Shown here piece after piece: positions 30,648 to 33,935 of a stretch of DNA of 35,669 bases. Location of the stretch: assembly GCA_004322205.1 (NCBI GenBank), contig SCSN01000008.1:82370-118038 (forward strand), given 5' to 3'. The stretch comes from Patescibacteria group bacterium (GTDB lineage: Bacteria; Patescibacteriota; Minisyncoccia; Phycocordibacterales; Zambryskibacteraceae). Each line of letters starts with the position of its first letter. Positions within the stretch are counted from its first letter, which is position 1. Position numbers and translations under genes: made by a program. A model generated the notes under the pieces. It did not search any database, was not told the origin of the DNA, and saw only the letters and a program-made list of their open reading frames with translations.

Positions 30648-31271
30648 ATGCGCCGTTTCCTGCAAACCCTGACAAAAGAAGAAAATTTTGCGTTCAATAA
30701 ATTAAGCACGCCGAAGAAGATTCAAGACTTCCTCGAATCGTTGCCCGTCAACTTTGAAAGGGGGGGAGATACACTTATGTCTCCGCGCCGTCTCTTGCGG
30801 CAAAAGAAGGCTCATTGTTTTGAAGGAGCACTTTTCGCGGCGGCGGTATTTCTCTATCATGGAGAGCCGCCCCTCATTCTTGACCTCAAGACTGCGCCGC
30901 CCGATGATCACCACGTTGTTGCTCTCTTCCGGCGAAGGAGGCTTTGGGGAGCAGTGAGCAAAACAAACCATGCGGTGCTTCGGTATCGAGATCCGGTATA
31001 TCGATCGCCGCGCGAACTTGCCATGTCATACTTTCACGAATATTTCTTGGATAACGGTAAAAAGACACTTCGCTCGTACGCCCTGTTCAATCTGAATAGG
31101 GTGAAAAGAAATTGGATTACTGACGAAAAAGATTTATGGTATGTTGACCGCACTCTTGATCGCGCAAAGCATGCTCCGATTCTTCCGGGCAAGGGCGCTC
31201 GAATTCTCCGCCGCGCAGAACCCATTGAGCGAAGAGCGGGGAAGCTGGTTGTATGGAAAAAACGCCTATGA
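30648..31271 (+). CDS. Conserved hypothetical protein, possible transglutaminase-like fold
   Basis: RRLLRQKKAHCFEGALFAAAVFLYHGEPPLILDL...DDHHVVALFRRRRLWGAVSKTNHAVLRYRDPVY; TAGAAT 6 nt before ATG. Confidence 0.6.
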   Translation: MRRFLQTLTKEENFAFNKLSTPKKIQDFLESLPVNFERGGDTLMSPRRLLRQKKAHCFEGALFAAAVFLYHGEPPLILDLKTAPPDDHHVVALFRRRRLWGAVSKTNHAVLRYRDPVYRSPRELAMSYFHEYFLDNGKKTLRSYALFNLNRVKRNWITDEKDLWYVDRTLDRAKHAPILPGKGARILRRAEPIERRAGKLVVWKKRL

Positions 31272-31279
31272 CTAAAAGC

Positions 31280-31313
31280 AACACAGTCACGCCGCTAGCG
31301 GCGTGACTGTGTT
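31280..31313. terminator. 34-bp perfect palindrome between convergent genes
   Basis: AACACAGTCACGCCGCTAGCGGCGTGACTGTGTT. Confidence 0.75.
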
Positions 31314-31338
31314 GAGTTTCTTGGCTTTTTAACTTTTT

Positions 31339-32169
31339 TTAATCAGCCCAGATAACGAAGGTGAAAACTTTTTCTCCTCGTCCGAGGTCGCGTTCATAAA
31401 GAGAACTGCGTCCGTCACGAGCGGTGCGGATAACCCGGCCCCACTCTCGCGGGCTGTTGAGATCAAGCTCTTCGAGGTTAGCGCGAGCAAGTGCCAGTGC
31501 TCCTGCGGCCGTTCCACGTCTGTCACTCAAGAGTGTGGCGCTTGAGTCAAGGTGAGCGTATATAGTCTCAAGTTGCTCGTAGTCGTGGTTGTTCGGATGC
31601 TCGTTGCTTAACTGTCCGTTGATGGTTCCGTCTGGGTCACCACTGTAATCCATGCAGGATCCGAGGTTGGAATTGTAGAAGTCTTCATCTTGGTGATCAA
31701 GCCCGAAGGTATGTCCAACCTCCTGGCACATCACGAAACCTCTCCATCCCGGTGTGTTATATCTGCTGGTGTTGAAGTATGTATCATTGACCCTCACCGT
31801 CCCTTTTGTGATATGGCTGCCGCTTATCCAAATAGATGCGATGCCAAGCCATCCATTGTTACCGTATCTGTTACTACACACTTCCACGCGTCCGTTTGTT
31901 GCTCTGCACCGTCGCGAGTCCGTCGAGCCGGAAACAACCGTGGTGTTTAGAATCGAAGATTGTGTCCAGTCACCAGATGCCGTGGCGAGAAACGGGTCCC
32001 ACGCGAATGAGACGTTATCACCGAGCTTAAGCGTAAACGGATTTACCGTTCGCGCCCAGTGATAACTACCCCACGAATGGCTTGCGTCCGCGACCAAAGT
32101 GAATGCGCCGACGAGCGAGAGCAGAGTAACCACTGTTACCAATCTGTTGAGGTGAGAAAATCTAAACAT
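31339..32169 (-). CDS. Secreted metallopeptidase-like protein with QExxHxxGxxH motif
   Basis: Signal peptide, then GWRGFVMCQEVGHTFGLDHQDEDFYNSNLGSCMDYSGDP. ATG at MFRF assumed; ORF extends to 32178. Confidence 0.65.
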   Translation of the reverse strand: MFRFSHLNRLVTVVTLLSLVGAFTLVADASHSWGSYHWARTVNPFTLKLGDNVSFAWDPFLATASGDWTQSSILNTTVVSGSTDSRRCRATNGRVEVCSNRYGNNGWLGIASIWISGSHITKGTVRVNDTYFNTSRYNTPGWRGFVMCQEVGHTFGLDHQDEDFYNSNLGSCMDYSGDPDGTINGQLSNEHPNNHDYEQLETIYAHLDSSATLLSDRRGTAAGALALARANLEELDLNSPREWGRVIRTARDGRSSLYERDLGRGEKVFTFVIWAD

Positions 32170-32515
32170 GGTAGACAAAATTGCTCTGAATTCTTGCGAC
32201 CTTTGTTGCGCTGATTATACTGGACCTCACTCCATCCTGTCAATTTTATTTTTAACAGCCTGGGTTTGAGAGAGCTTTAGTAAAAAATAGAGCCTAGGAA
32301 CTCGTTAATTTCGCGCTGTTCCAAGTCACAAAAGTATCTCTTCCTCATAAAGCGCTGTAGCCGGCGGGGCAGGGAACCCGTTTAGAGAAAATTGGGTAGG
32401 TTGGTTGTATGGAAAAAGCGGAAAGGTAACCTCTCCCGGTTCTGCTTTCTGGAAGAAAAAATAGAATAAGTAGAAGAAAAAGTAGAATAAAAAGTGACAA
32501 GCAAAAACTTTATAG

Positions 32516-32549
32516 TTCATCCAACAATTCCATGGAATTGTTGGATGAA
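32516..32549. repeat. 34-bp perfect palindrome, copy 1 (downstream of arsR-like gene)
   Basis: TTCATCCAACAATTCCATGGAATTGTTGGATGAA. Confidence 0.9.
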
Positions 32550-32571
32550 GGAGGTTTCGGTGTTTGATGGT

Positions 32572-32838
32572 TTAATGGGTAAAAAGTGTCAATGCTCTTG
32601 AGAAGTCTCGAGGCATCTTGCGATTGAGATAGTAAAAAACATGCCCGGCCCTGCCCTCAACTTCCAAGACATCCAGTTTCTGAAGCATAACCAGATGATT
32701 GGAAGTTGCCGTCAGCGAAATTTTAAGTGCCGCAGCAATATCACCGACATTCATTTTCTGACCATCTGATAGCAAATCAATTATTTTAAGCCGGTTGATA
32801 TTACCTAAGATCTTAAACACCACTGTCCATCTTTTCAT
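32572..32838 (-). CDS. ArsR/SmtB-type winged-helix transcriptional regulator
   Basis: WTVVFKILGNINRLKIIDLLSDGQKMNVGDIAAALKISLTATSNHLVMLQKLDVLEVEGRAGHVFYYLN; start at 32838 by TGC-TACAAT-6 nt-ATG. Confidence 0.85.
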   Translation of the reverse strand: MKRWTVVFKILGNINRLKIIDLLSDGQKMNVGDIAAALKISLTATSNHLVMLQKLDVLEVEGRAGHVFYYLNRKMPRDFSRALTLFTH

Positions 32839-32871
32839 CATTTTATTGTAGCACATTTGATCTACTCATAA

Positions 32872-32905
32872 TTTACTCAACAATTCCATGGAATTGTTGA
32901 GTAAA
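32872..32905. repeat. 34-bp perfect palindrome, copy 2 (upstream of arsR-like gene, in divergent region)
   Basis: TTTACTCAACAATTCCATGGAATTGTTGAGTAAA. Confidence 0.9.
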
Positions 32906-33002: not shown

Positions 33003-33935
33003 ATGCAGAGTGAATTTATTTTCGAAAAGGCACCGTTTGATTCTTGCCACGCCTCGACGATTGCAGAGTCGGAAGGCAAGCTGGTGGCTGCTTGGTTCGC
33101 AGGGACAAGAGAAGGCAATCCCGACGTCGGTATCTGGCTTGCGCAAAAAAATGCAGATGGCTGGACTGAACCAAGGGAAGTTGCAAACGGCGCGGGGTCC
33201 GGAGGTGTCAGATACCCCTGCTGGAATCCGGTTCTATTTCAGCCTACTCGTGGGCCGCTTCTTCTTTTTTATAAAGTTGGCGCCGACCCCTCTTCGTGGT
33301 GGGGAATGCTTATGACATCGGAGGATGGCGGGAGAACGTGGTCAAACCCCAGACGACTTCCGAACGGGATTCTAGGTCCTATAAAGAATAAACCTATACA
33401 GATTGGCCGCGATATTATATGCCCTTCAAGCACGCAAGATGACGGTTGGAGAGTCCGCTTCGAGCATTTAAGTGATTTTGGAGAGACTTGGCAGACCACT
33501 GGTCCCGTAAACGATGGTAAAAAAATAAGCGCCATTCAGCCGGCAATCCTTCATCATACTGACGGCATTCTTCAGGCCGTAGGAAGAACTAGGCAAGGAA
33601 GAATTTTTTCCATTAAATCATCTGACGTGGGGAGAATATGGGGTGAGATGACTCTTCTTGATGTCCCTAATCCAGATTCCGGCATAGATGCGCTTACCTT
33701 GCGGGACGGAAGACATCTTATGGTTTATAACCATACGAAAGTCGGCCGCAGTCCTCTCAACGCGGCGGTGTCTCTGGACGGAGAGAAGTGGGATATGATT
33801 TTGACTCTTGAGGGCGGCGACGGTGAGTTTTCGTACCCGGCGGTAATTCAGACTTCCGACGACACGGTACATATCACATACACTTGGAAACGTAAACGGA
33901 TTAAACACTTAACATTAGATTCGCAAACGCTTTAA
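33003..33935 (+). CDS. BNR/Asp-box sialidase-like protein, no signal peptide
   Basis: SEDGGRTWSNP Asp box plus degenerate SDFGETWQ and SSDVGRIWG; FDSCHASTIAESEGKLVAAWFAGTREGNPDVGIWLAQ. Confidence 0.85.
   Translation: MQSEFIFEKAPFDSCHASTIAESEGKLVAAWFAGTREGNPDVGIWLAQKNADGWTEPREVANGAGSGGVRYPCWNPVLFQPTRGPLLLFYKVGADPSSWWGMLMTSEDGGRTWSNPRRLPNGILGPIKNKPIQIGRDIICPSSTQDDGWRVRFEHLSDFGETWQTTGPVNDGKKISAIQPAILHHTDGILQAVGRTRQGRIFSIKSSDVGRIWGEMTLLDVPNPDSGIDALTLRDGRHLMVYNHTKVGRSPLNAAVSLDGEKWDMILTLEGGDGEFSYPAVIQTSDDTVHITYTWKRKRIKHLTLDSQTL

Follow-up and report, generated by a model that had tools for sequence, protein, structure and literature searches.

RAYT (TnpA-REP) genes are always flanked by cognate palindromes, further copies of which are dispersed, and both diverge together with preservation of symmetry (PMC2817692). 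Rickettsia palindromic elements (RPE) are palindromic repeats located between genes and, in frame, inside unrelated conserved genes (PMC10969869). Papers on such palindromes in CPR/Patescibacteria were not found in the open-licence literature. Dispersed palindromic sites, some of them in coding DNA, also belong to transcription-factor-like proteins such as SlmA, Noc, MatP and ParB.

The window analyzed here, a stretch of 35,669 nucleotides from a patescibacterial genome of 667 kb, contains two palindromes of 34 bp which flank a gene with ArsR fold: an upstream copy (U; 32872–32905, TTTACTCAACAATTCCATGGAATTGTTGAGTAAA) and a downstream copy (D; 32516–32549, TTCATCCAACAATTCCATGGAATTGTTGGATGAA), the latter situated 22 bp past the arsR stop. 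Both are strandless, each 34-mer being its own reverse complement, and the identity of their central 22 bp, described in the initial annotation together with the perfect symmetry, was borne out. This 22-bp core occurs twice in the window and nowhere else in it even if three mismatches are allowed. It was recovered in 0 of 100 shuffled windows, and a Markov control of the window contained no zero-loop palindromes with arms of at least 11 nt. In the genomes surveyed below, zero-loop palindromes are 12-fold denser near ArsR genes than elsewhere (1.07/kb vs 0.09/kb). Shuffles, Markov control and density together rule out a chance palindrome.

The gene between the palindromes lies on the minus strand (32572–32841). 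Its open reading frame of 94 codons opens at 32856 (32572–32856), with the likely start at ATG 32841 or 32838. The encoded protein carries the HTH_5/ArsR winged-helix domain that characterizes ArsR/SmtB regulators (PF01022, E = 2e-9, 37.6 bits against a Pfam cut-off of 22), is also matched by HTH_20 and retrieves chains of CzrA, SmtB and HlyU from the PDB. Counted from ATG 32841/32838 onward it contains no cysteine, and metal- or thiol-sensing residues such as the α3N CxC motif were not found, the α3 region reading NVGDI. Because of the missing cysteine, the protein is ArsR in fold without being a classical arsenic or metal sensor. Many ArsR-fold regulators are devoid of metal or thiol sites, so that this absence rejects the metal-sensor subtype only. 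Pfam assigned to the protein exclusively HTH families and the O-methyltransferase dimerisation domain, itself a winged helix; a Y1 (HUH) tyrosine transposase domain was not detected in it, and no transposase or recombinase is encoded within the palindrome-ArsR unit. Both neighbours lie outside the conserved unit. The divergent one is a sialidase-like gene on the plus strand (33003–33935; Pfam BNR_2, E = 1e-82), and the one on the other side is a minus-strand ORF (31339–32178) which resembles a metalloprotease by eye only and gave no Pfam or NCBIfam match.

Like RAYT genes, the ArsR gene has cognate palindromes on both sides and additional copies elsewhere in the genome, and protein and palindrome co-diverge. 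Unlike RAYT, however, the protein is an ArsR winged helix of about 90 residues devoid of a Y1/HUH domain, and the palindromes display no GTAG head, are few in number and occur in frame inside genes. Since the architecture is REP/RAYT-like and the coding copies are RPE-like, but the protein has the fold of a transcription factor and is not accompanied by a transposase, the locus is on balance probably a cognate binder together with a dispersed palindromic element subject to gain and loss, a reading whose binding, autorepression and mobility we infer from sequence patterns. The unit would then comprise a small DNA-binding gene of ArsR fold and, on each side of it, its palindromic site of about 32 bp, and would be one member of a large patescibacterial family, every paralogue of which possesses its own palindrome.

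That bracketing is a rule in the order and not peculiar to this locus can be seen from 197 of its genomes, 65 of which carry ArsR homologues. From 60 regions taken, 63 ArsR genes were scored using a core filter: matching palindromes were present upstream of 39/63, downstream of 37/63 and on both sides of 36/63. Each bracketed locus has its own core, and the unbracketed homologues are mostly diverged ArsRs. The core of the window itself brackets an ArsR homologue in three other species, the proteins being 77, 62 and 52% identical. Exact core matches in named assemblies come mainly from Patescibacteria (Ca. Kaiserbacteria, Ca. Campbellbacteria, UBA2135), and the Campbellbacteria contig recurs, with identical coordinates, as a genome of the window's own order. 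In the reverse direction, palindrome pairs picked by pattern alone in the genomes G082, G130 and G143 enclosed genes of ArsR type, among them those of a second protein group (GTTCTTGAGAAC cores) and of another one (TTCCTAGGAA cores). The two palindromes of the window are thus an instance of a system of repeat and presumed binder in ultra-small Patescibacteria that has apparently not been described.

A phage-borne unit was rejected, as viral contigs contained no relative of the ArsR protein and the sole core match (L308) resides in an unrelated phage-like contig. In the JAUYPG bin (L009, L010, L015), palindromes of the Patescibacteria type occur on contigs labelled Nanoarchaeota, together with an ArsR bracket whose centre is non-palindromic (TATG/CATA) and lies in opposite orientations (G201:C85); this bin is probably mislabelled or mixed. 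A Bacteroidaceae MAG (L011) possesses a pair of long perfect palindromes (106–127 and 1500–1521) which share CAACAATTCC arms, lie 1.4 kb apart and are not accompanied by an ArsR gene; they are probably unrelated terminators or a convergent case.

Alignment of solo copies within genomes defines a site of about 32 bp, ATTC-N4-ATTC-N4-GAAT-N4-GAAT, with each half sharply bounded at about 16 nt; some copies carry extra symmetric arms of up to 25 nt. The copies of the window deviate from this general pattern by two mismatches. Conservation in related loci extends over about 16 nt of each half, and so the arms, far from being free, belong to the site. The proposal that arm changes are compensatory holds perfectly for the two differing arms of the window, but only partially across 35 bracketed loci, where only 26 of the 137 positions at which the arms of U and D differ show symmetry in each of the two copies; strict compensation of all arms was therefore rejected. 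In line with the preferred reading, a protein dimer would most likely recognise the central ATTC-N4-GAAT together with the outer ATTC or TAT at about ±13.

The match between the two sites of a locus is close. Among sites that had been selected as palindromic, U and D of the same locus differ at 1.74 of 14 half-site positions, compared to 5.16±0.27 for permuted loci (10,000 permutations, minimum 4.00), and protein distance correlates with site distance (Mantel r = 0.31, p = 0.0004; main clade r = 0.40, p = 0.0002). This correlation could reflect recognition or joint inheritance. CAATT cores accompany the subgroup containing the window protein, characterized by FK.L.N.NRLKII, and NNATTCG cores accompany the larger group (LKALANRRRLAI; RRLAI). 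Paired, cognate and covarying with the protein across species, the palindromes do belong to the ArsR-like gene, as had been supposed from the window alone.

With regard to the promoter, the extended −10 box TGC-TACAAT noted beside U is present on the minus strand at 32845–32850. As read directly from the sequence, it stands immediately before the start codon, almost fused to ATG 32841/32838, and a near-leaderless transcript is predicted. The box is 38 nt away from the centre of U, the edge of which lies 22 nt upstream at the −35 position; therefore U touches the −35 position and not the spacer. In relatives, too, U sites precede −10 boxes: a TATAAT-like box 8–36 nt beyond the centre of U was found at 59% of loci (peak at 19 nt) vs 20% in shuffled sequence, which agrees with the operator-like placement suggested at the outset. 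Since the U copy usually precedes a −10 box, autoregulation through U is likely, and to judge by this position U is very probably an autoregulatory operator, at which the bound dimer would most likely repress its own promoter. Frequencies of −10 boxes at D sites (12%) and solo sites (16%) do not exceed the background (17%), and these sites were accordingly rejected as regulon operators at promoters.

Fold, sequence family and a putative dyad operator at the own promoter are shared with ArsR/SmtB repressors (SmtB, CzrA, HlyU, BigR). An ordinary autoregulated repressor, for which two flanking operators permit looping and the target is the divergent sialidase-like gene or a small regulon, would account for this fold, for the location of U at the promoter in most loci and for the long dyad site with ATTC half-sites. 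It is nevertheless decidedly unlikely, because the neighbours differ at every orthologous bracket, D and solo sites display no promoter enrichment, and solo sites are found within coding genes but seldom in divergent spacers. The absence of cysteines and of metal-resistance neighbours, the second cognate site behind the gene and the dispersed non-promoter sites likewise set the system apart from known ArsR/SmtB repressors. The sialidase-like gene, originally proposed as the target, is missing beside orthologous brackets, and a conserved sialidase target was consequently abandoned.

Strong RNA hairpins (z = −5.5 and −8.0) and a bias of solo copies to 3′ ends would suit bidirectional transcription terminators or RNA-stabilising hairpins that share the locus with the ArsR gene by chance. 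However, neither window palindrome is followed by a T-run, in agreement with the initial annotation, and T-runs are rare after D sites (3 and 2 of 37) and equal to shuffles after solo sites (7 of 80 sides). Moreover, such hairpins leave the ArsR bracketing and the cognate cores unexplained, which makes this reading very improbable. Since −10 boxes and solo T-runs are at background and D T-runs are rare, neither D nor the solo sites qualify as promoter operators or as intrinsic terminators. A known RNA family was also rejected, as only sub-threshold plant miRNA models were found, which score any hairpin. In contrast to the ArsR palindromes, a perfect 36-bp palindrome at 31279–31314 (CAACACAGTCACGCCGCTAGCGGCGTGACTGTGTTG), located behind a plus-strand gene ending at 31271 and followed by T-rich DNA, is an ordinary bidirectional terminator. 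Another perfect palindrome of 30 bp (GCCAGCCCCGACGGTACCGTCGGGGCTGGC) is found between genes at 1563–1592.

Beyond the brackets, each genome contains roughly 5–28 further sites, mostly intergenic and towards gene 3′ ends, and solo palindromes outnumber brackets. This copy number is far below that of typical REPs, which counts against an element. The ATTCG pattern occurs 4–15 times in most of the ArsR-bearing genomes examined and about 0.5 times in ArsR-free genomes, equal to the reversed control. With a generalised pattern, 14 sites were obtained in the genome of the window, 28 in G082, 25 in G130 and 0–3 in genomes without the ArsR group; these counts are lower bounds, since no site is counted in certain ArsR-bearing genomes whose arms are of other types (e.g. 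G031). By reading, about 15 intergenic solo copies lie between convergent genes, 22 in tandem arrangement behind the upstream gene and 4 between divergent genes. According to the preferred reading, D and the scattered copies would be the repeats of a dispersed palindromic element resembling REP and RPE.

In-frame palindromes are present inside tgt, dusB, uvrC, iscS, mnmA, gnd, miaA, tsaD, pheT, pcm, rnhA (RNase HI) and other genes (names according to NCBIfam), a feature shared with RPE. Enzymes of tRNA metabolism and translation (Tgt, DusB, IscS, MnmA, MiaA, TsaD, PheT) seem to be over-represented among the hosts. The genome of the window itself harbors a palindrome of another ArsR family inside tgt (G000:C10:13498; L160 2425–3708), which encodes the peptide SLIRANKRI. 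Seven genomes carry a palindrome at one and the same loop of IscS, with at least five different cores, and none is present in G181 and G163. Loop positions recur across species, often with different palindrome families, in Tgt, TsaD, PheT, DusB and UvrC as well. Such reuse of the same coding positions could indicate selection for a site there. The net lengthening caused by in-gene copies is only about 3–10 residues, less than a clean insertion of 32–33 bp would add, so that clean insertion is not demonstrated; with net lengths in IscS, Tgt and UvrC that do not fit, a clean 32-bp insertion in genes was rejected. Protein-coding palindromes have been known in Rickettsia since 2000 and, to our knowledge, have no identified partner protein. 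Unlike RPE, which measure about 100–150 bp, the palindromes described here comprise about 32 bp, lengthen their hosts by less than the element, belong to another phylum and have an identified cognate candidate binder gene; in addition, one coding position carries different families in related species.

The Tgt loop of three genomes (L201, L205 and L207 in G130, G055 and G016) also carries hairpins or palindromes of unrelated sequence, e.g. TTCACTTGGGAACTAAGTTCCCAAGTGAA, which suggests that more families of coding palindromes exist for which no partner is known. Where miaA encodes the conserved helix ITIRLFARIR, three genomes (L193 2393, L258 1564, L271 1551) have a one-sided copy of the palindrome arm (AACTATTCGCTTATTCGCGCGAAT).

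Dispersed dyad sites in both coding and intergenic DNA, together with the reuse of positions in IscS, Tgt, TsaD, PheT, DusB and UvrC, are also what chromosome-organising sites would display. Here, the protein would bridge or mark dispersed palindromes in the manner of SlmA, Noc, MatP or ParB, and selection would keep the sites at permissive places including coding loops. This main rival gains from the solo sites of G062 (TAT-N3-CTAATTCG), in which the outer TAT and the inner CTAATTCG are retained and the three bases between them vary without symmetry, a pattern as would be expected of protein contacts. It is unlikely, however, given that one genome contains several independent families with separate binder genes and few sites each, that sites are present or absent between sister species, and that their occurrence in the order is patchy. 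Parallel families, bracketing of each gene by its own sites and rapid gain and loss distinguish the system from SlmA, Noc, MatP and ParB.

Gain and loss are evident from sister species. An intergenic palindrome of G109 is replaced by a gap of 43 nt in G031, the two genomes having about 83–86% DNA identity around these sites, and in UvrC a site with different arms, belonging to another family, is found in G031 and none in G159. The ArsR bracket of G109 and an SDR gene (together 1,212 bp) are missing from G159, in which the same flanks are connected by 60 bp, and the locus is also absent from G031. These absences, as well as the stand-alone gene in unrelated contexts, would be compatible with a mobile ArsR cassette, in which the whole palindrome-gene-palindrome segment transposes and the palindromes are its ends. 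Yet the segment absent from G159 also included the SDR gene and ended elsewhere than at the palindromes, solo palindromes are more numerous than brackets, and a transposase is missing, which renders transposition of the entire cassette quite improbable. None of the genome comparisons yielded an empty site matching a bracket exactly. The suggestion that the palindromes delimit a small mobile cassette comes closer than that of a sialidase target, in that unit and solo sites are gained and lost between sister species; however, neither a transposase nor a clean 350-bp insertion was found, and palindromes also occur alone, even in coding genes.

A cognate binder with a dispersed element would imply a turnover of copies by gain, loss and exchange, both at the intergenic ends of genes and where conserved genes tolerate an in-frame copy. 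More tentatively, and with some doubt, these patescibacterial palindromes may form a class of selfish or domesticated elements that has not been described before and whose owner is a winged-helix protein of ArsR type instead of a transposase. The palindrome would spread between genes and, in frame, into loops of essential proteins of translation and repair that tolerate it; one family would take the place of another at a given site, and protein and palindrome would co-diverge. Such a system would account for the unusual peptides (SLIRANKRI, FSNSRELENS, YSNVLQNIGI) that individual species of these very gene-poor bacteria have within conserved enzymes, and would illustrate how repeat systems persist in genomes of extreme reduction. 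Since each palindrome family is tied to a single candidate binder in many genomes, binding, spread and effect are directly testable. At one further locus (L014, 5423–5863), an IS200-type TnpA gene together with its right-end hairpin abuts the downstream palindrome of an ArsR bracket; this TnpA is possibly a Y1 mobiliser, or its position a coincidence.
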